Made by a program: the position numbers and the translations under genes. The notes under the pieces are model-generated. The model was not told where the DNA came from and made no database searches. It worked only from the letters and a program-made list of their open reading frames with translations. Shown here in pieces: positions 1-21,305 of a DNA stretch of 21,305 bases (position 1 is the stretch's first letter; every line of letters begins with the position of its first letter). This stretch comes from Boothiomyces macroporosus (taxonomy: Eukaryota > Chytridiomycota > Chytridiomycetes > Rhizophydiales > Terramycetaceae): NCBI GenBank assembly GCA_027604185.1, contig JADGKB010000173.1:1-21305 (forward strand), written 5' to 3'.

Positions 1-1887
1 GAATACAAAAAGGCCCTCGCGTCAAATATCGTTGCAAACAATTTACCATTTACATATGCAGAGTGGGGTGAGACAAAGTATTTGCACACCTTTTTGAATA
101 ATGAAGTCAAAACATATACAGCAAACACTGTCAGAAATTATATTCTATCTTTAGTAGATTTGAAGATGCAAAAGGTTGTTGACTACTTTTCTCGTTTAGA
201 ATCCACTAGAATATCTCTCACAATTGATGGTTGGAAGAGCCGCAATAATATGGATTTTGCAGGAATAAGTGCACATTGGATTGATCCTAATTGGAAATAC
301 CACAGTACTTACATTGGATTCACATACTGCGACTTTAAAAAAACTGGGAAAAATATGGCACATTTACTCTCCAAATCAATTACAAATTTTGGATTAGAAA
401 ACAAAATAATGGGAATTACGTGTGATAATGCCTCGAATAACGACGTAATGTTAACACATCTGGAAATAGCTAGTTCAGAATGGTTATATCCTTTTCAAAC
501 CACATGGGGTCATATACGCTGTCAAGCTCATGTCATAAATTTGGTAGCTAAAGCATTTTTAAAATACTTTGACTCGCATATAAAAGGCAAAATAGATCCA
601 GCAGACGATAAAGAATATTTTCAACCAGACTTGGATACCCTCAATGAACAGGAGGTTTCAAGTGACTCGGAAACTTTGGAAGATTCAGATGACGATAGTG
701 AAGTAGACGATGGGGAAGAACACTTTCAACCTAGGCTTTCAAAGGAAGAGCTCCAAGAATCAAAAATACCAATCACCAAATTACGAAATATCATAAAAAA
801 AATCAGGAGAAGCACAGAAAAATTGAGTGAATTTAAACTATATGCCCAAAATTCAAGTAAAATTGTAGGAACAAACAAAATGTTGTTACCAGTGTATGAT
901 GTGCAAACACGATGGAATTCAACATACTACATGATTCAGCGTGCTTTAATTTTAAAGGATGCAATAACTAAAATGGGGATTGTATTTTCTATTAAAATTA
1001 CTGAAATTGATTGGGTCGTACTTGAAAGGTATTTTCTTGTTTAATTCCAGAATCAGCAAAATTTTAGTTATATTCGAAGCAGCATCAAAGGAGGTATGTG
1101 TATCAAACAGTCCCACGTTATCTTCATCATTATACACTTATGAAAAAGTTGAAGTTAAATTAAAGGAATCTAAACCTCCTCAATCGAGTAAATATCCATT
1201 CTCTAAATATTTGGATAATGCTATTGATGCTGCCATTTCAAAGCTGCAACTTTATAATGACAAAAGTGGAGTTATAGCTCAAATATGCACTTTACTTGAT
1301 CCAAGGCGAAATCTGACATTCTTCCGAAAATATTGGTTAGATGACGACATTAAAAATTTAAAAGATAGGTTTGTCGAACTAGTGGCAGTATACAATTACG
1401 TTCTTGAATTACGCGGCGTACTTTCTCGCACTAATTTTGACTGGTCTAGCGTAATTACTGACCGTCCAATATATCAAAGTGACCAATTTCAAGACTACCC
1501 TCCCATTGCACCAACTACTAAACCAAACAATATAGTGTCTCTGTTGGATAGTGATGACGAATCGCCAACGAACGATAAGCCGTTGTACCAATACGAAGTA
1601 GAAAGGTAATTATTCTTAATCTTGGATATCAGAAAGAATACTGCATAGGAAAGAGAGATATTGATCCTTTAGTTTTTTGGAAAAATATGGAGGAAAGTCA
1701 AACTTTTGTCCTTTTGCCTTTGATTGCTCGGGATATTTTTGCAGCACAACCATCGAGTGTTTGCGTAGAGAGATTTTTCAGCAATGCAGGTAATGTTGTT
1801 ACTGCAAACAGAGCTAGTCTTGGGGCAAAATCAATATCTGCTTTGCTGTTAATGAAAGACTGGATGAATAATCCAATATTCAAATAA
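1..1887 (+). CDS. hAT transposase, 5'-truncated by window edge, possibly frame-damaged
   Basis: The frame is open from base 1. It shows the hAT RNase H-like core: SLTIDGWKS (first catalytic Asp), ITCDNASNN (second Asp), the CxxH motif in IRCQAHVINLVA, and TRWNSTYYM. The C-terminal dimerisation region follows (DPLVFWKN, then SSVCVERFFSNAG and SISALLLMKDW). A 22-nt intron at 1029-1050 joins the first two open blocks as LER|ISK. The second junction, near 1600, is unclear. The C-terminal frame (AAA at 1633 onward) is reached by a 20-nt intron at 1582-1601, by a 35-nt intron at 1598-1632, or by a single-base frameshift near 1605. The obvious GT-AG pair 1606-1632 (27 nt) leaves the frame wrong. The copy may therefore be recently active or slightly degraded. 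An acidic insert lies at about residues 195-245 counted from base 1. Confidence 0.85.
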
Positions 1888-1973
1888 AGCTGTTATACTA
1901 ATAGTTGTTGATTATATGTTCTTTTTTAATGCAGAAATAATAATACAAATCATTTTCCCTTACATTAAGAAAT

Positions 1974-2070
1974 GGGCGGGCGAGGGCGGGCGAAGAAATT
2001 CTTGGGCGGGCTGGGCGAGGGCGACAGTCTCTCTGGGCGGGCGAGATGGGCTGGGCGAGGGCGACTGCGA
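1974..2070. repeat. G-rich subterminal repeat tract of the hAT element
   Basis: The tract holds repeated GGGCGGGCG and GGGCTGGGCGAGGGCGAC units. The second unit is present twice, exactly, at 2008-2025 and 2048-2065. Many closely spaced GGG runs on the + strand could form G-quadruplexes. Subterminal repeats that bind transposase are known in hAT elements, so assigning this tract to the element is reasonable inference. I found no similar G-rich sequence elsewhere in the window. Confidence 0.65.
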
Positions 2071-2166
2071 CCCCTAATGATGACTCAGAAGTCAATGCGA
2101 CAGAAAATAATTAAACTTTTGCACTTTGTGAATGATATATTGTAAAAAGGTGTTTTGAATAATTTC

Positions 2167-3079: not shown

Positions 3080-5943
3080 CTTGGAATTCTTTTGTTTTCC
3101 TTTGGATGAAGAAGATTTCGCACTGGCTTTTGCTGGTTTCCCTTTTTTGACAGTCTGTACTGGCTTATCTTCCTCTTCTTCCTCCTCCTCTTCCACCGGT
3201 TCATCTTCAAGAACAACATCTTCTAAATCAGGAACATCCATAGATGCAGAGGCACGCGAGGCTTTCACCTCTGAAGAAAATGGTGTTGGGTGACTGGTTT
3301 TGTTGTATCTAAATTAATATCTGAATACGTTCTGGTAAATGCAGACTTGGTTTTTGATGGAATACCGCTTGGGTATGACTGATACCCTAATTCCATTACA
3401 GAGTCGAAATCATCTTTGTTCAAATAATAACTGTCCATCAGATTTATAACATCTGATATACCATCTTCACTATCAGCCATTGGTTTGGTCAACTTCTTTG
3501 CAAGCAAAGGTAAATAAGACAGACGCAATTCATTCTTGTCTGCAGAGGTGTGCAATCGCGTGTGGAGTTGCAATTCACGCAACAGTCTATTTCCTTTGCC
3601 TTGCTTCGAGTTTTGCCCTAACCAAGATGGGAACTGAATCATTCCTTTCAGTTGACCATGAGCAAAGAAGCAAGGACGAATAGTAGAAATGACACCATGA
3701 ATAGGTAAAAGGGACCAAGAGTTTTCTTTTCTTTGGCTACTATCTAAAATATCTCCCAAAGAAATAGAGTCCGCCGCCTGTGCCATTAAATTCATTACTT
3801 GGTGGTTCATTTGTTTACCAACAGCACCCGACTCTCGAGCAAGTTGAGAGTTGCAATGCAAATAGTTTTCCTAAATCAAATGGCTATTACTTGGACCATC
3901 AATGGTATGAGTGAAAAGTCTTGAAAGTATAAATCTATTTTGTCATTGAAAGAAGTAGATCTAAATGAATGTTGGGTGAATAGACGTGAAGTAATGTCGA
4001 ATGGAGAAAGTGACACATTCTTTGTGACAGAATTAGAGCTAGGTTAACTGCCAAATACATATTCTTGGAGTCGTCAAACGATAAATTGTTGTGAGACAAC
4101 CTGTAAGTGGACAAAATATTCAAAATCTGGCGAATATCTCCTGAAGTGGACGCCACTAATTCTGCAATAGCATTTGGCTCCAGTGTCAGTCCCTCCTTTT
4201 GAGCAATTGTTTTCAATCTTGCTTCAACCTGCTGTGCTGTAGCTCTATGGTTAATTAACGACACCTTCTAAATCTTAAATCCAAAGTGTAATTTGCAAGT
4301 GATCTAATTTTTGGTGACGAGCGATCATTACAGATACAAATAATAGGAACATGGCTCTTTTTGATAATTTGGATAATTTCAGCTATTCCACCACGGTCTC
4401 CACTAGACATACCATCTACTTCACTATTTATCAAAATATAATTACTCCATGATGATTATCTTTTTGCCCTTGGATTGGGGTTTACCACTGAAATAGTCCT
4501 TGACAGTTCCCGACAATGTTGCTTCTCTAACCAAGTCGTCTAATGTTTTCTTGCTTCTAGAATCACTAGCATTGAATTCAAGGACATCAACATTTTCAAA
4601 CTTTGCAACTAAATGCGCTGCTGTTGTTTTACCAATACCAGGAGGTCCAGAAAGTAAAGCAGCCCTATATTGTGTGACAGAGTCTTTGTTGCCTTTTGGA
4701 AAGCCTGCTTTTCTGTTCTTATCCCTACACTCAATATGATGTTACCATTCTCTAACCCATAAAGCTAATTTTTCAATCAAAGTTTTGTTTGCTATCACTT
4801 CGCTGTAGTTTTGGGGTTTATATTTATCTGTCCAGAGTTGGTCTGATGATTTGGGCTTTGTGAATGGAATGGTAGCAGCAATTGGGGCTTTTCCTTTATC
4901 TTTTGCTGGTTTCTTTGAACCAGCTGTTGGTGCAGTGGTAGTTTTAGAGTCTGATTTGGCAGATGCGTTTGTGTTTGCTGACCCAGTTCCAAATGAATTG
5001 ATGAAATCATAAAACTCATCCTCATTAAGGGTTTTCAATTTCAAGTCTGCAATCTTTTCCATCTTTTTTGGTCCAGGATCTTGTCCAACTACCACATAAG
5101 AGGTTTTCTTGCTAGGCGCTGTTGTAACTTTTCTATATTATATCGGTTTGTACCCTCCGTATCTTTTGATGATATCCGTAGAATCTTCTCTGGATAGTGA
5201 AGCCAAATCCCCCGTGAATACAAACGTCAATCCAGCCAAGCAATTTGGGGAGCCAATTGGTGGCGGTCTTTGAACAATAGCTTGTGCATGGACGGCTTTC
5301 CTGGCTGCATATTCATGATAACTGCTTTAAAAAGTAAGTACTTGAACTTCTTGGGCTGTTCATCCTTTGGTTGTTCTTTGACAGGAGACTTTTTCGTGTC
5401 TGCTACCACCACAAACTTAGTTGGCTTTTCTTCAACATCATCCGCTTTTCTCTTTGCTGGTGATGCCTTTGGAACTGGTTTGACTTTTTCAACTTTTTTC
5501 TCAATTTTAGTCTTGCTAGCTGGCGCCTTATCTTCTGGAATGAAATTCTCTTTACTCTTCTCATTCCTTTCGACTTCATCCAACAATTTTAGTGCTGCTT
5601 GATCGAATTCGTCCTCGTTGCTTGCGTTTTGATTCTTTTTTGTAATGGATTTCTCTGACTGTGCAACTGGCTTGTTGAAGAAGCTCGACGGATCGACTAA
5701 TTTCTTTCTAATATAAGAGCTGCTTACGGTTGAGTATCAAAGGCGTCTGGTAGCTTTCTCTTTCCTGCTACTTGTTTAGGTTTCTCTTCCGGTTCATCAT
5801 CAGAGTCTACGATTACGACCGATCGCTGTTCCTTCTTTGCGGATGCTAGCATTAGAAATGATGTACATTTAGGCTGTAATTTAAACGTCGAACTACCTTG
5901 AAAAAATCACGAATGTCCTTCTATTGTTAGGGGAGATTACCAT
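3077..5943 (-). CDS. RFC1: Replication factor C subunit 1 (clamp-loader large subunit)
   Basis: Splicing 13 coding exons gives 2619 nt, 872 aa, close to yeast Rfc1 (about 860). Order: PIP-like KDIRDFF at residues 3-9; acidic/basic linker; BRCT domain (about 190-270, with RYGGKVTT); LWTDKYKP (about 328-335); Walker A GPPGIGKTT (384-392); Walker B IIIMDEVD (447-454); sensor region DIRQILN; RFC1 C-terminal domain (SWSLLP, FPSWLGQN, AFTRTYNKT); charged lysine-rich tail. RFC1 with RFC2-5 loads PCNA at primer ends. Introns: 5921-5940, 5874-5896, 5846-5866, 5708-5727, 5322-5341, 5133-5153, 4725-4745, 4424-4445, 4245-4264, 4039-4058, 3871-3890, 3309-3328, all 20-23 nt. The start is fixed by homology: ATG 5943-5941 is followed at once by an intron, and the next exons are 24 and 7 nt. 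Confidence 0.96.
5846..5943 (-). other. RFC1: RFC1 5' micro-exon cluster
   Basis: The first 98 bp of the gene hold only 34 coding bases. They are ATG (5943-5941), an intron of 20 nt, exon 2 of 24 nt (5897-5920), an intron of 23 nt, exon 3 of 7 nt (5867-5873), and an intron of 21 nt (5846-5866). Joined, they read MKDIRDFFKPKS, the conserved N-terminal PCNA-binding motif of RFC1 (human begins MDIRKFF). No other arrangement I tried restores this motif. Confidence 0.85.
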
Positions 5944-9868: not shown

Positions 9869-10522
9869 ATGATTGGAACCATTACAAGAATTGCCCGCCC
9901 TTCTCTGAATTTACTCAAAATCAACCGCGTGTTAACTGCGCAACGATTCGTTGTGCCTAAAAGATTCTACGCAGAAAAGGCCGACGAACCAAAACAAGAA
10001 CAAAAATCTGAGGAAAACAAAGACGGAAAAACTGAAGATTTTCAAGAATTATTAAAGAAGAAGGACCATGAAATCGCTGAATTAAAGGATTTATATCGCA
10101 GAGCATTGGCTGACGCTGAAAATCTCCGAATTAGAACCCGCAAGGAAATTCAGGACAAGGAAGCCTACGCTGTCCAGAAATTTGCCAAAGATTTGCTAGA
10201 CACTGCAGATGTACTCACCCTAGCTCTGAACGCTGTTCCAGAGAGTGAACGAGGAGAAAACAAGTTGAACCCAGAATTGGGCAAATTATATGTTGGTGTT
10301 GAATTGACTAGAAAAGAGTTGTGGAAGGTATTTGAACAATATGGAATCACACACTATAATCCGCTCGGTGAAAAGTTTGACTACAATCTACACACTGCCA
10401 TTTTCCAATCTGTGGTTGAAGGAAAGGAACCAGGTACTATTATCCATGTGGACAAGATTGGGTACAAAATGAAAGACAGAATATTGAGACCAGCCAATGT
10501 TGGTGTAGTCAGGGAAAAGTGA
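9869..10522 (+). CDS. MGE1: Mitochondrial GrpE nucleotide-exchange factor
   Basis: An intronless ORF of 217 aa. It has an N-terminal mitochondrial presequence rich in Arg/Ser/Leu (residues 1-35, including PKRFYAEK) and a charged linker. The GrpE long helix follows (about 65-130: EIAELKDLYRRALADAENLR, then DKEAYAVQKFAKDLLDTADVL). The C-terminal beta domain has the family signature FDYNLHTAIFQ...GTIIHVDKIGYKMKDRILRPA in outline. It releases ADP from mitochondrial Hsp70 (Ssc1), driving matrix import and folding. Length matches yeast Mge1 (228 aa). This is one of few genes here with no intron. AATAAA lies at 10526, 4 bp past the stop. Confidence 0.97.
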   Translation: MIGTITRIARPSLNLLKINRVLTAQRFVVPKRFYAEKADEPKQEQKSEENKDGKTEDFQELLKKKDHEIAELKDLYRRALADAENLRIRTRKEIQDKEAYAVQKFAKDLLDTADVLTLALNAVPESERGENKLNPELGKLYVGVELTRKELWKVFEQYGITHYNPLGEKFDYNLHTAIFQSVVEGKEPGTIIHVDKIGYKMKDRILRPANVGVVREK

Positions 10523-10556
10523 CTTAATAAAGAATTGCAAAGCTGAAACTTTTATT
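10520..10556. terminator. Convergent 3' ends of MGE1 and CYC8
   Basis: Stops are 29 bp apart. The + strand AATAAA is at 10526-10531. The - strand AATAAA (10556-10551) contains the CYC8 TAA stop (10554-10552). Confidence 0.55.
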
Positions 10557-12292
10557 GAGGGGGTTTGTATCTCTTCATATCTGGACCATCAATCGGTGTC
10601 AAACGTCTCTTGCCAGTTTGAGGTGCTTCTTCTTTCTCGTCTGGCAAGCCAGCCCTATTGAGTTGTGGACCCAACATCATCGGACGAGATTGCTGCTGTG
10701 GAGGTGGACGTTGAGGGTTTTGTCCAGGAGGTGGTGGATTTGGATTAGCCAGTTGGTTGAATGAAGTAGGACCGCCGCCATTCAACACTGGTTTCTGGCC
10801 AACTTTTCGCGGTTGCTGCTGTTGGTTACTTGAAGGTCTTTCCGGTAAATGAGGAGACTAGTGTTAAATTGACTTACTCTAAAGTTTACAGGTGCGCTTC
10901 CACCAGCATTTGGATATTTTGGAGGAGCAGTATCTTGGGGAGCTGGTTGTTGAGGTTGTAATTGAGGAGGATTTTCACCATTATTAGGATTCTTTAGATA
11001 TTGAATTCTTTGTTTAATTAATGCGTTATTTGGATCAATCTCAAGTGCTTTGGTGTATGCATCCAGTGCGTCAGATTGCTGGTTTTCGCAAGACTCGTAC
11101 AGTGTCCCCAAGTCAAACCTAAAATTAAAAGCAATTACCAAACTTCAGAGATATATGGGTTTAGTCTAATCGCCCTACTATAAGCATCAAGGGCATCTGA
11201 ATATTGGTTAATTTGGTAATAAAGCACACCAATCGAGCACCAGAAAGTAGGATTACGACCATCCCGGTATACAGCTTGCTGATAGGCATTATAGGCATCA
11301 TTGTACTTTTGCTGGGCCATATAGCAGCGTCCCAAGAAATAAAAGCTTTGGGCATCAGTTTGGTCAGATTCAATTGAGCGAGTAAGATGGCTAATAGCGG
11401 CATCTTGGTTTGTGAACCCGGAATTTGAAATATGGTATAGCCATCCAAGCTGCTGCAATACTTTGGCATGTTTAGGGCTTTCAGCCAAAACCCTTTCGTA
11501 TGCCTCTCTCGCCTTCCCATATTCTTTCTGCTGCTCATACAAATGCCCAATTTGGAACCAAATATCTAGCTCAGTCAACGGGCTTGGTGGACAGTTCAAG
11601 ATGTATTTGAAACACTCTAAACTGTTCTCGTATTTGCCCTCTTGTTTGTAAATAATTCCAAGTCTAAAGTAAATTTCGTTTGCTTTTTCAAAATTTGGAT
11701 CCATTTCGATTACTGCCGAGAATGCATCTTCTGCGTGTTCAAAAGAGCCATATCGATCGTACAATATTCCAATCCCGTACCATAATTTAGGTTCCTACAT
11801 AAATAATAAAGTACTTTTGGGTTTGGTAGGTGGTAGAGCGCTTGTTGGTAAGCGGAATAGGCTTTGTGTAGGTCATCCAACATCAAATAACAGTGTCCCA
11901 AAGCTCCCCATACCTCGCCGTTGCTTTCATGTAATTTGAGGATTCGCTGGAAATACTCAGCCGCCTATAATCAGAATCGAGGACCTTTGCGTATTTTTCT
12001 TGAGATCGACATAACGAGGCGATGATGGTCAGAGTTTTTTCAGAGTATGGATTGTGACGAAGACAGTTTTCGTATGCGGCTAGCGCTTTATCTGGATCAG
12101 ACATGTTTTCAGCTACTTGACCTGCGATTAAGGAGGGTTACCTTATGTTAGATTTCCTATACCTAAACGTAAATCGTTCCTAGTTACCTGTGGGTTATCA
12201 TCGGCTTACCTAGGCGTCAGTTAATTCCTACCTATCTGGAACCAAGTGTTCTCATTCATTACCTGCAATTCCTTTACAATCTGTGAGGCCAT
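10552..12292 (-). CDS. CYC8: CYC8/SSN6-type TPR corepressor subunit
   Basis: Six exons (12232-12292, 11985-12121, 11815-11964, 11139-11794, 10878-11118, 10552-10857) total 1551 nt, 516 aa. Successive TPR repeats carry the family signatures ALGHCYLMLDDLHKAYSAYQ, WYGIGILYDRYGSFEHAEDA, WFQIGHLYEQ and WCSIGVLYYQINQYSDALDA. The C-terminal ~140 residues are Pro/Gln-rich. Cyc8 with Tup1 is a general corepressor recruited by DNA-binding repressors. The protein is much shorter than yeast Cyc8 (966 aa) because the Q-rich tails are reduced. Ordinary introns of 20 nt lie at 11965-11984, 11795-11814, 11119-11138 and 10858-10877. The first intron position (12122-12231) is a 110-nt stack of five intron-like units. 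It lies head-to-head with TBL1, 49 bp between starts. Confidence 0.95.
12122..12231 (-). other. CYC8: Stack of five back-to-back minimal introns in CYC8
   Basis: Removing all 110 nt joins WFQI-G to QVAENMSD in frame (ATAG|GTCAAG), as TPR homology demands. Read on the - strand the 110 nt divide without remainder into 12231-12210 (22 nt), 12209-12188 (22), 12187-12163 (25), 12162-12142 (21) and 12141-12122 (20). Each begins GTA and ends AG, so every border is AG|GT. Four of five carry a clear branch-like motif (TTAAC, GATAAC, CTAAC, TTAAT) near the 3' end, and unit 3 has TTTAC. The units are not similar to one another beyond these signals, so they are not a recent tandem duplication. Unit sizes match the single introns of the window. 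Confidence 0.8.
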
Positions 12293-12341
12293 TGAACGGT
12301 CGTTTTTTTGGAGAAATTTTCAGCAAATTTTAAAAAACCAA
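12293..12341. promoter_or_regulatory. 49-bp divergent intergenic region, CYC8 / TBL1
   Basis: This is the only DNA between the start codons of two corepressor genes. It is T- and A-rich with a T7 run and no TATA element. Shared promoter control is inferred from distance only. Confidence 0.5.
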
Positions 12342-13895
12342 ATGAGCATCACTTCAGACGAAGTAAACTATCTGGTGTACAGGTATCTATTAGAATCAGG
12401 TTGACAAACATTAATATCAGGATTCACTCATACTTCGTTTGCTTTTCAATATGAAACCGCGATACACATGGCAGAGATCAAACAAGGTTCAGTCAGTCCT
12501 GGAGCACTGATAACGCTGCTACAGAAAGGCTTACTCTTTTCACAAGTTGAAACGCACCTCAATGAAGTATTTGTTTTTAACTTCAGGACGGCAGCGAAAA
12601 GAAATGTGTAGCTCCCTTCACACTGTTGGGTCCTCATGTCTGTCAAATACAAGAAAAGAAGAAGAAAAAGAAGCGCAAGGAAGAGAAGGACAAGAGTGAA
12701 GAGAAGCAAAACAAAAATATCGAAATTTCGAGCACTAATGTAATAGCACTGAAAGAGCATGAGTCAGATGTATATATCAGTTTACAATAGGTATTTGTGT
12801 GTTCTTGGAACTCTGTCTATCCTCTGTTGGCCACAGGTAGCGCTGACGGGTCTGCTAGAATATGGAATATACCTGAGGATCCAAGTGTAAAAGTTACGAG
12901 TATAGTTTTGCCACACAGCAATTCTTCAGCTGAAAGCAAAGATATTACTACATTAGAATGGAGTGTAATTAATAGTTAAATGTAGCCCGACGGCAGCCTG
13001 CTAGCCACCGGTTCTTATGATGGATTTGCAAGAATATGGCATAAATCTGGAGAGCTAAAGTTTGTTATGGAAAGACATGTTGGCCCAATATTTTCACTTA
13101 AATGGAACAAAAAGGGGGATTTATTACTTAGTGGGGGATTGGATACTAGCGCAATTGTGTGGGATATTAGGACGGGCGACTCTAGACAGCAATTTTCCTT
13201 TCACACTGGCCCTACTTTGGATGTTGATTGGAGAGATGATATTACATTTGCCACCAGTTCTGCCGATAAAAAGATTTTCGTTTGTCAGTTGGGTTCTCTG
13301 GAGCCTTTAAAGAGATTTTCAGGCCACACAGATGAAGTGAATTGCATAAGGTGGGATCCTAGAGGTAAATATTTGGCCTCCTGTGCAGATGACAGAACTG
13401 CAAAGGTTTGGTCGCTAGATCAAGACGATCCAATATGGGATTTGACTGCCCATGATAAAGAGATCTACACAGTAAGATGGTGTCCAGCTAAACCAAACGA
13501 AGATAAACTATGGCTTGCAACGTAAACCATTGCTAATCTAGCGCTTCTTTTGATGGTGCGATAAGGTTATGGGATATAAATTCTGGGAATTGTCTATATA
13601 CTCTGTCGCAACATAAAGAGGCAGTCTATTCCGTTTCATTCACTCCGGATTCTACCTTTTTAGCGAGTGGATCTGTCGACAAGAGCGTTTATGTATGGAA
13701 CTTGAAGGTAATATTTGATAACCTCAGGATGGAAGTTTAGTTAATTCTTATACCGGCGAAGGCGGAGTGTTTGAGCTTGCTTATAGCCCTAAAGGTGACA
13801 AGTTGGCTGTTTGCTATTCCGATAATAAGGTAATCAATCTGTAACCGCAGTTGGTTGTTTTATATACCAATCGAGAAATTGAAGCCAAAAAGTAA
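12342..13895 (+). CDS. TBL1XR1: TBL1/TBLR1 (yeast Sif2-like) LisH-WD40 corepressor
   Basis: Eight exons give 1410 nt, 469 aa (human TBLR1 514). The N-terminal LisH motif reads MSITSDEVNYLVYRYLLESG, followed by THTSFAFQYE and a lysine-rich linker (about 105-130). The WD40 propeller then starts ALKEHESDVFVCSWN and continues with WD repeats typical of TBL1: SGGLDTSAIVWDI, SSADKKIFVCQL, FSGHTDEVNCIRWDP, LASCADDRTAKVWSL, DGAIRLWDI, SVDKSVYVWNLK and VFELAYSPKGDKLAVCYSD. Animal TBL1/TBLR1 belong to NCoR/SMRT-HDAC3; yeast Sif2 belongs to Set3C. Introns: 12400-12420, 12567-12586, 12770-12790, 12965-12985, 13522-13541, 13708-13727, 13830-13850 (20-21 nt). Confidence 0.96.
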
Positions 13896-14085
13896 TCATT
13901 TTCAAGCAAATGGACAAGATTTAATATAAACAATTTAACGCGGTTTACTTTATATTTTGATCGGCTCCAAAACAAATTTGTTTGGTTTTGGAATCCATTT
14001 CTATATCCATGTTTTGAGAGCAGCTACAGGATATCCATTGTGTTTTTTAGTTATAGGAGGCGTTTAATTTTTTCACCAAACATCC
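13896..14085. other. Intergenic region between TBL1 and the OSBP gene
   Basis: 190 bp, AT-rich. It holds an AATATAAAC-like 3' signal about 30 bp after the TBL1 stop and presumably the promoter of the downstream gene. I see no ORF, RNA gene or TATA box worth calling. Confidence 0.4.
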
Positions 14086-18750: not shown

Positions 18751-21304
18751 TTATTTACCTTCTCCCAACATTGTCTTTGCAATATGAGCATTTGTCCAAG
18801 GATGGAAATAGTTATCCCAAGACTTTGCATCATCTTCATTCTCATATGTAACTTCAAACTGGTCCTTGTCCAAATAATATCTTCTAGTAAGGTCAGATAC
18901 TTTTTCAACTTTGAATTCTTTCAAGTTTGGTAGTTTCCAGCATTCACCATCGCCTCTCTTTGAAGCAGCTTCATCTTCAAGAGTGAGTTTAGTGAATCTA
19001 CAGAACGATACGAATTCAGGAGTTTCAGAGTGCATCATTCTTGGTTTTGATTCAGAGAACAGTCCTGGTTTACGAAGAATAACTGGAGTGCCAGCTTTTC
19101 CTTTCTTGGCATCCTTTTCTTTGACAGAAATGGCTTCCATCGATGGATTAGTAATGCTATGAGTAGACTTGCTGCCACTCTTTGTGCTTAGAACATTGTC
19201 TTGGACGCAGTGAACTACTTTTAATGAGAATGACGAAACGAGGTTGAAGAATAGCAAGTAAAATACTGCAATCATCTTGATGGCAGCTTTTAATCGGAAT
19301 CCCAAGCCCTCTGATAGCAGAATCGAGATAGCAAACAAAGTAATCTACTATTAAGAAATAGTTACGATAGTAGTATTGTAAATAGCCAGAGTAATTACTC
19401 TAGTTTCGCTGTACTTTGAAGGAATATTTCTAGTCTGGAACGCAATATACAAATTCATTGCAAGAATAATTGCACAATAAACTGATAAGAGCGTTACCAT
19501 CACACTTTGCAAACTTGTTGAAGTTGACGAACAAGTCCAAGCATAAACGCCTTTCATCACCGTAATAGCTGCTGGTTTAGGGGCATCTTTTGCATTCCAA
19601 ATCGCAATGATAATTGCTGGTGGAATACCAAATATAATTCCTCCTATAATCGTTTCGTGTGTTTTCAAGATTCTACTTCTTGGGCGGGTGAAGATTGTGT
19701 AAATTCGGTAATTCTTTATAAACATTAATCCATAGTAAACCGAAAAAGTGATTGGAATAATAATAGAATCAACTGTACAAGTAGTGTTTGTTGGTTTGTT
19801 GAGCATTGTTAATAAATCAAACCAAGTGACAAAGATACAGAATTGCATTGCAAATCCCACAAACACATCTGATGCTCTGATCATTGGTCTATTGCGGTAC
19901 AGGACTATGCCAACAAGTGAGGCAATACTGGTAACAGCACCAACAAAGAATAAGATGATTGCCAGGATACCTAGTCCGTCACCGCTGGTTTGTAAATAGT
20001 CAGCTACAGTTGTTGGGTCGATTGCGTCCGCTGGCTTGTAACTGGCTCCTCCTGGATAGTAGTATGGCTGAATTTGGTATTCTGCGCCATTGGACCACTT
20101 TGATACTTGGACAAGGCTGGCGTCTGCCTGAACATTCATAATCGCGTAGTCCCCGCTTCTGTCGCCGTTCTGGTCCAGAGATATCCTTCCCGTCGTCGTG
20201 TCATGATTTGGGAAGTTAAATGATTGAGGGACTTGCATCTGGCTGTTTAGCTCACCTGCATTAGAGCGGCTTACCATTAGCGAGCTTGGTGACATTGTTT
20301 CCGTTTGCTTTGACCAGAGCATCAAAGCCCAAAAGCGCTAGATCGACGCAGCTGCTGTGGAAATAGCCAAACGGGCCGCTGCTGTTGATCGAAGACACGT
20401 TTGCGCCAGGGTTTCCAACGCCGAGTCTGTTGGCTTTCCAGTAGGCGTCAAAGGCGTCCGACACTGGCCCGTCAGCCCGCTCCAGCGGGAACAGATACGA
20501 GGTGCCGGCATAGGCAGTAGTAGGGACCATTTGCTGCAGCCCGTCGGTTCCGATCCAAAAGTATCCAGCGCCGTAGCAGCCAGCCAGCGTGGCCTGCTGG
20601 ACGATCACCTCGTACTCTGCTGCAAACCCGAAATACACAATGATCCTCGCTTCGGCAGAAATAATTTGCTGTGCGATTTGATTGGCTGCATTTGCGTCCA
20701 CATTCGTTTCCACTAGCTGTCTCGAAAGCACGGTTATGTTATACTGCGACGCGTAATTCAGAAAAGAGGATATGGCTCCATTCCCATAGTCTTCGTCGGT
20801 ATTAATAGTGGCGATTTTGTGCCAGCCGTTGAAAGCAAGGTATTGGGCCATCGTGAGCGTAGCAGCGTTATCGTTGGGGATGGTTCGGAAAAAGTTTGGG
20901 TAGAGCGCTTTCTGTCCCAGAGTCGGATTAGTGGAAGAGCCGCAACACATTGGAATTTGGTAGTTTTGTAGAATCAACGAACTAATAATCGACATTGACG
21001 AGTATCCGGAACCAAAGATAAATATTTCTCCGTCAAGAGCCATATCGAGTGCCTGAGGAATCAACTGCGCCTTGCTTCCATGGTTATTTAGCAGAGTCGG
21101 TACAATTGTTGCGTTTGGGTGTATTAGCGAAGTGTTTTGGTTGAGCTGGCTGATTCTTACAAAGACACCTTCAATTTCATCAGCTAAATCGTTAGTTCCG
21201 TCAAGATAGAACATGAGAATTCCTACCTTGATTTGTATCGTTCCATTAGGAGTGAGACATTTACAAATCCCTAAGAGTAGGGCTATCTGATAGAGCAAAT
21301 TCAT
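18751..21304 (-). CDS. Class C (GABA-B-like) G-protein-coupled receptor
   Basis: Three exons (20275-21304, 19366-20255, 18751-19344) with introns of 19 nt (20256-20274) and 21 nt (19345-19365) give 837 aa. The start is at the window edge but fits a signal peptide (MNLLYQIALLLGICKC). Residues ~22-400 form a type I periplasmic-binding (venus-flytrap) domain: VGILMFYLDG, FGSGYSSMSIISSL, CCGSSTNPTL, FFRTIPND, FNGWHKIATINTDEDYG, FGFAAEYEVI and WIGTDG. Seven membrane helices lie at about 437-462, 470-493, 504-532, 544-565, 592-616, 629-650 and 660-681. The third is followed by NYRIYTIF, as in GABA-B receptors, and introns do not break the helices. There is a 155-aa cytoplasmic tail of unknown fold. 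The receptor probably senses a small extracellular molecule; the ligand is unknown. The sushi and long Cys-rich linkers of animal relatives are absent. Confidence 0.92.
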
Positions 21305-21305
21305 T

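Follow-up and report, generated by a model that had tools for sequence, protein, structure and literature searches.

Closest described systems

The source of new introns is a long-standing question. In zero-nucleotide recursive splicing, as outlined for Drosophila and human in the excerpts of the literature considered here (PMC5126111, PMC10156609), juxtaposed AG|GT sites allow the stepwise removal of an intervening sequence with no exon left behind. In ascomycete fungi, several U2 introns can occupy one position as stwintrons, which the excerpted accounts describe as one intron situated within or next to a splice element of a second intron, with the inner one having to go first (PMC7138796, PMC9024468). 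Intron gain via repeat expansion, with a copy number that varies between strains, is summarized for the Cryptococcus gene CNN00420 (PMC2395259), and the ultrashort introns of ciliates are given in abridged form as falling within a narrow span of lengths around 25 nt (PMC5014332).

The window (the whole 21,305-nt stretch analyzed here of DNA from Boothiomyces macroporosus, a soil chytrid of the Rhizophydiales, Chytridiomycota) contains in its CYC8 gene an array of abutting intron-like units that can be set against each of these. As in recursive splicing, AG|GT ratchet points lie inside the intervening sequence, both in CYC8 and in the comparable arrays of MGM101 and TFB1; the known hosts of recursive splicing, by the partial accounts, are mostly long introns, with some below 1,000 nt also included (PMC10156609), whereas the predicted Boothiomyces arrays have pieces of about 20 nt, up to nine of which abut. 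In contrast to stwintrons, their units are complete and lie side by side, and the order of their removal should not matter. No CYC8 unit interrupts a splice element of another, which rules out a stwintron as outlined in the excerpts of PMC7138796, PMC9024468 and PMC5639578. The likeness to Cryptococcus CNN00420 lies in new introns arising by the copying of existing ones; however, the repeat summarized there is about 107 nt long and includes exon ends (PMC2395259), while in Boothiomyces the repeat would be the intron alone, with the protein unchanged. Ciliates share the tiny introns and the narrow length range, and the available parts of two reports on them make no mention of abutting arrays (PMC5014332, PMC12862383). 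Introners, as briefly described, would likewise give rise to many new introns (PMC9860276), but in Boothiomyces the likeness between units of different arrays does not exceed that between randomly chosen solitary introns. The initial annotation of this DNA knew of no described case of five abutting ultrashort introns, and we too recognized no such arrays in searches of an open-licence literature collection, represented largely by titles and abstract openings.

The abutting units of CYC8

On the - strand, window positions 12231-12122 within CYC8 comprise 110 nt that partition, as the initial annotation had proposed and as a base-by-base check of the borders bears out, into an exact GT..AG tiling of 22+22+25+21+20 nt. 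All five units begin with GTA and end with AG, and the AG|GT word is present at all four inner borders and likewise at both exon edges, with the array lying on the - strand between ..CCAGATAG and GTCAAGTAGC.. The gene is organized as follows:

12232..12292, - strand: CYC8 exon 1, coding MASQIVKELQVMNENTWFQI plus the first base of a G codon and ending ..ATAG (our own gene model)
12210..12231, - strand: intron unit 1, 22 nt, branch motif TGAC
12188..12209, - strand: intron unit 2, 22 nt, branch motif TAAC
12163..12187, - strand: intron unit 3, 25 nt, weak branch motif TTAC
12142..12162, - strand: intron unit 4, 21 nt, branch motif TAAC
12122..12141, - strand: intron unit 5, 20 nt, branch motif TAAT, the strongest of the five
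11985..12121, - strand: CYC8 exon 2, starting GTCAAG.. (..QVAENMSDPDKAL..) (gene model and alignment with other fungal Cyc8 proteins)
11965-11984, - strand: solitary intron of 20 nt (gene model)
10552..11964, - strand: remainder of CYC8, four more exons with 20-nt solitary introns between them (gene model)

Taking out the 110 nt joins ..NENTWFQI-G-QVAENMSDPDKAL.., which restores the conserved beginning of Cyc8. When nine proteins are aligned, this junction is ungapped in seven of the eight other fungal sequences, the eighth (P0008) beginning inside the region. The residues of exon 1 are identical in the deposited protein of Boothiomyces sp. JEL0838, a clean record free of the 110-nt stretch, from which the 516-aa protein that we predict differs at a single position (residue 462). 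Conversely, none of the 31 possible sets of retained units has an open frame, which rules out retained coding sequence; unit 4, the sole unit with a length divisible by three, brings in an in-frame stop if retained. Stretches of this kind are rare: in 221,305 bases searched on both strands, one of 14,254 GT..AG segments of 105-115 nt tiles into GT..AG units of 18-26 nt, namely that of CYC8. Pairs of AGGT words in the same 221 kb are by themselves too weak a statistic, with 43 pairs at a spacing of 18-26 nt, 31 at 8-14 nt and 34 at 30-38 nt.

The units had also been said not to resemble one another, and we detect no similarity between them: the best pair scores 5 (corrected p of 0.99 against pairs of solitary introns). 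Tandem Repeats Finder reports no repeat in window positions 12000-12350, which rules out a plain DNA repeat. Both the absence of a repeat and the 1/14,254 figure count against the view that the array is a chance placement of AGGT words, or a DNA repeat within coding sequence, and contains no introns, an explanation to which we give hardly any credence. The 3,500 bases that include the locus (window 10501-14000) recur without a single difference (3,500/3,500) at C1:391419-394918, such that at least part of the window contig is represented again at the end of contig C1. As this copy is identical, it carries no information on allelic change in unit number.

The units compared with ordinary introns

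For comparison, we used our own gene finder, which combines a periodic Markov coding model with GT-AG introns of 14 to 300 nt under Viterbi training, on a sample made up of the window, C1:1-100,000 and C2:1-100,000 (221,305 bases). Under a first length prior, one half of which was uniform over 14-40 nt and the other over 14-300 nt, the intron lengths nevertheless peaked sharply at 19-22 nt. The splice-site models were trained on predictions of 17-26 nt and followed by a learned length prior, and the later intron set thus carries these assumptions. The resulting reference comprises 342 predicted solitary introns of 18-26 nt with a mode of 20, 91% of which start with GTA and which show a YTRAY-like branch motif, mostly 2-3 nt ahead of the AG. 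Among 203 introns between well-supported exons, 189 are of 19-23 nt, one of 24 nt, two of 14-15 nt and 11 of 33-274 nt. Several of the last group resemble fused neighboring genes or a missed exon, for example a kinase without its catalytic loop. Elsewhere in the window (5867-5943), the 5′ end of a predicted gene consists of exons of merely 3, 24 and 7 nt with introns of 20, 23 and 21 nt. We take this gene to be RFC1-like.

By U2-type criteria, all five CYC8 units are GT..AG stretches of 20-25 nt with scores inside the range of solitary introns, mostly at its low end. An intron score of at least 0.6 is attained by all five, as compared, among decoys, to 2.9% of 10,221 GT..AG stretches that are not introns and 3 of 218 AG|GT..AG stretches in exons. 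The branch motif, earlier noted in nearly all units, is present in its strict form (TRAY) in four of the five, unit 3 having TTAC only. That the units have the size of single introns is correct as regards the solitary range of 18-26 nt, while in other respects they are less typical: their splice signals fall at percentiles 6, 7, 19, 8 and 77 of the solitary introns, placing four of them in the lower fifth, and their G+C content is 42% against 30%.

These low scores bear on an account in which the donor of the first unit pairs with the acceptor of the last and the array is removed as a single intron, the inner signals being rarely or never used leftovers of duplicated or merged introns. Besides the four low-scoring units, this account can draw on our gene finder, which initially called CYC8 units 1-4 a single 90-nt intron, and on the fact that all routes of removal yield an identical mRNA. 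Conversely, long introns are not evident in this genome, given that the 11 longer ones among the 203 include several apparent model errors. On the whole, we regard removal as a single intron as unlikely, and the inner units of the longer arrays, considered below, weigh in the same direction.

Arrays in other genes

A genome search for further AG|GT-bordered runs, which the initial annotation had suggested, turned up arrays in MGM101 and TFB1 and 35 candidates in all, and CYC8 is thus not unique. MGM101 shows nine consecutive predicted introns at C1:351601-351779 (one of 21, six of 20 and two of 19 nt) after residue 98, inside the match to the Pfam Mgm101p domain at residues 40-207. TFB1, named on the basis of deposited homologues and its BSD domain, with a PH_TFIIH match over the junction slightly below the cut-off, has four (20, 21, 21 and 19 nt) at C4:258846-258926 after residue 20. 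From the unselected gene-finder sample came a pair of 20+20 nt at C2:58930-58969 in a HEAT-repeat gene, the model of which continues into a second gene. This HEAT-repeat gene resembles Integrator subunit 4. Inner AG|GT borders number eight in MGM101 and three in TFB1, next to the four of CYC8. As in CYC8, no set of retained units leaves an open frame in MGM101 (0/511) or TFB1 (0/15, with seven sets compatible in length and a stop in all seven), and hence all units must leave the mRNA if the proteins are to be made. For these three genes, the array structure is established as far as sequence allows, and the predicted layout of abutting introns, with two to nine units, is a recurrent one in several genes of B. 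macroporosus.

The wider searches give a more mixed signal. Three AGGT words at intron spacing, taken as a loose pattern, match 273 times in 15.2 Mb, with about 79 matches expected from a simulated genome, and a pattern admitting other donors has 38. Reversed controls exceed both (1,636 and 104, respectively) because TGGA is commoner than AGGT. A stricter pattern gives 37 matches as compared to 11 reversed, and 6 Mb of simulated sequence yielded no match to it; CYC8, counted on both C1 and C173, accounts for four of the 37, and at least a few others resemble coding repeats. The first 100 of the 273 loose matches, which lie on contigs C1-C31, form 67 chains, and among these listed matches 16 of the 67 chains have every unit scoring at least -3. 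Our set of 35 array candidates (105 units) consists of the 4 resolved arrays, 16 loose-pattern chains whose mean score exceeds -1 and in which two or more units score above -3, and 15 chosen by visual inspection among the stricter- and other-donor-pattern matches; 48 of the 67 chains and the remaining stricter- and other-donor matches were left out. The reading frame was checked for four of the 35, and 29 are known from their unit sequences without flanks. Ten stretches were examined with their flanks: two are in-frame arrays, three a solitary intron plus a chance AGGT, three neither, and two (C1:7627 and C5:40740) have intron-like units outside the modeled coding regions.

The searches also turned up layouts of other kinds. 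A pattern for zero-length exons has 18 matches and one for 3-nt exons 15, six of the latter (overlaps included) falling within 1 kb of contig C103, and this difference carries little weight. These six matches to two introns exactly 3 nt apart, some of them overlapping, lie at C103:30243-31205, and an overlapping pair of the same kind lies at C172:5885-5949; the two clusters may be either introns with 3-nt exons or a repeat. At C16:137512-137557 and 143924-144032, a 21-nt repeat has AGGT borders and no branch motif and would read as a seven-residue protein repeat. It is probably a coding repeat, and as such a false positive of searches based on borders only.

Chance placement or coding repeats thus account for some of what such patterns retrieve, as indicated by the matches expected at random, the 48 chains not accepted, the reversed controls above the real counts (the stricter pattern excepted) and the resemblance of the five-unit C16 chain to a coding repeat. 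However, the arrays of CYC8, MGM101 and TFB1 interrupt conserved proteins and cause stops or a frameshift if kept. For these three, the sequence itself makes such an origin very unlikely, and less so for the candidates known without flanks.

Inner units and the mode of removal

Removal as one intron requires only the first donor, the last branch point and the last acceptor. We accordingly considered chains of at least four units from the AGGT-only pattern, taking all units but the last for branch motifs. A relaxed motif (T-N-A at branch distance), chosen after the TTAC of CYC8 unit 3 was known, is present in all 26 distinct non-last units of six chains, and in 335 of the 342 solitary introns. 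Among decoys, it is seen in 52 of the 218 exonic AG|GT..AG ones and 3,232 of the 11,469 other GT..AG ones. A seventh chain, the near-identical 21-nt copies on C16, was omitted, and with it the count is 26/28. The strict TRAY form is found in 17 of the 26, the corresponding share being 73% for solitary introns and 7-11% for decoys. Donors are more relaxed, GTA being found in 16 of 26 distinct non-first units as compared to 91% among solitary introns and 31% among exonic decoys, although in the four resolved arrays it is found in 15 of 16. We read this as most inner units probably being under selection, with some slack.

The inner branch motifs, retained in every sampled unit though most arrays lack similarity between units, favor a unit-by-unit removal over one long intron with relics, even if the weaker inner donors speak somewhat for the latter. 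The unit lengths point the same way, lying at 19-26 nt in all 35 candidates, a range partly imposed by the spacing of the search pattern. Of the three readings offered in the initial annotation, recursive splicing at the smallest scale is thereby the one that these motifs and the solitary-range lengths would favor, and a single 110-nt intron with relict signals is disfavored by the same two features.

Unit-by-unit splicing is the likely mode of removal for the arrays in general. Each unit has its own donor, branch-like motif and acceptor, spaced as in ordinary 20-nt introns, and a spliceosome recognizing introns over about 20 nt would most likely take the units out singly. Each removal would rejoin an AG to a GT, making the order immaterial and every route productive of the same mRNA; consequently, an added unit would stay invisible in the protein for as long as it can be spliced. 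For CYC8 itself, we consider it probable that the 110 nt represent five complete U2-type ultrashort introns with zero-length exons between them, belonging to a wider class of arrays and removed one by one. Such arrays would offer a naturally occurring means of examining how splice sites pair near the minimum intron size, and of seeing which GT pairs with which AG when several lie 20 nt apart.

Growth of the arrays

In five of the 35 candidates, the units are more alike than random introns, whereas 30 show no detectable similarity, a test with low power at 20 nt. In MGM101, units 3-7 are near-identical and the array is detected by Tandem Repeats Finder; the array at C24:126660 has a two-unit block repeated with one base changed; that at C8:114395 has two identical units and a third with three base differences; and those on C92 and C183 have related neighboring units. 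Tandem duplication is hence indicated as one route of growth. Separately, the two-unit arrays at C12:116206-116248 and C43:77527-77571 have similar second units (19 nt, score 15), perhaps as the same array in duplicated genes or haplotypes.

We posit that arrays would grow by tandem duplication of whole units, which then diverge while keeping their splice signals. The simplest view of the dissimilar units would be that they were duplicated in place and then drifted apart while selection maintained these signals, and the CYC8 array might have originated in this manner. On balance we lean, by a modest degree of confidence, toward introns multiplying in place as their own minisatellite, the 20-nt intron being at once the repeat unit and the splicing unit, with each copy removed singly. 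If so, arrays of up to nine units could grow or shrink without a change in the mRNA, and the arrays would represent, to our knowledge, recursive splicing at its smallest scale and highest density.

The 30 arrays without detectable unit similarity, CYC8 among them, would also fit the repeated insertion of separate introns at one AG|GT site, for example by reverse splicing, in place of duplication. The splicing would be the same, and this alternative, which we hold to be possible but rather doubtful, pertains to origin only and does not exclude the splicing account given above. The similar or identical units of the five arrays speak against it, as does the want of likeness between arrays: among array units, 5 of 5,305 cross-array pairs score at least 13, with about 12 expected, and an introner-like family is ruled out by the same lack of cross-array similarity. 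Moreover, since introns of 20 nt lose their similarity fast, the similarity test has little power, and the dissimilar arrays weigh less in favor of insertion. The gain at a self-regenerating AG|GT site envisaged in the initial annotation thus holds in form, such arrays being found in at least three other genes, with similar units in 5 of the 35 candidates. Under in-place multiplication or insertion alike, the gain of a unit has nil coding effect, and unit counts between strains could therefore measure the rate of intron duplication and loss directly. The array layout offers in this sense a natural test of intron multiplication.

Deposited gene models at array sites

Several deposited records depart from their homologues at the array sites. 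The B. macroporosus TFB1 record (P0195) lacks 21 residues directly after the array, and that of JEL0866 lacks 11 residues after it, a segment present in three other aligned chytrid proteins. For MGM101, the JEL0838 record is clean, in the JEL0866 record 12 residues are inserted precisely where the array lies, and the record of Terramyces sp. JEL0728 lacks 31 residues around it. Four of these TFB1 and MGM101 records (P0195, P0196, P0122 and P0123) show apparent gene-model errors at or next to arrays. The JEL0866 insert could be translated unspliced units, in which case the MGM101 site would be occupied in a second species. With gene models faulty at the array sites in some records, arrays are easily missed.

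Other features of the window

The start of the window (1-2076) has a transposase-like reading frame with a weak match to DUF659, under the cut-off, and its part at 1306-2076 recurs with 100% identity on contig C107. At the other end, positions 18814-21305 comprise most of a class C GPCR-like receptor with 7tm_3 and ANF_receptor matches. Copies of this stretch with 85-100% identity are found on contigs C216, C114, C171 (two) and C136, pointing to a recent duplication.
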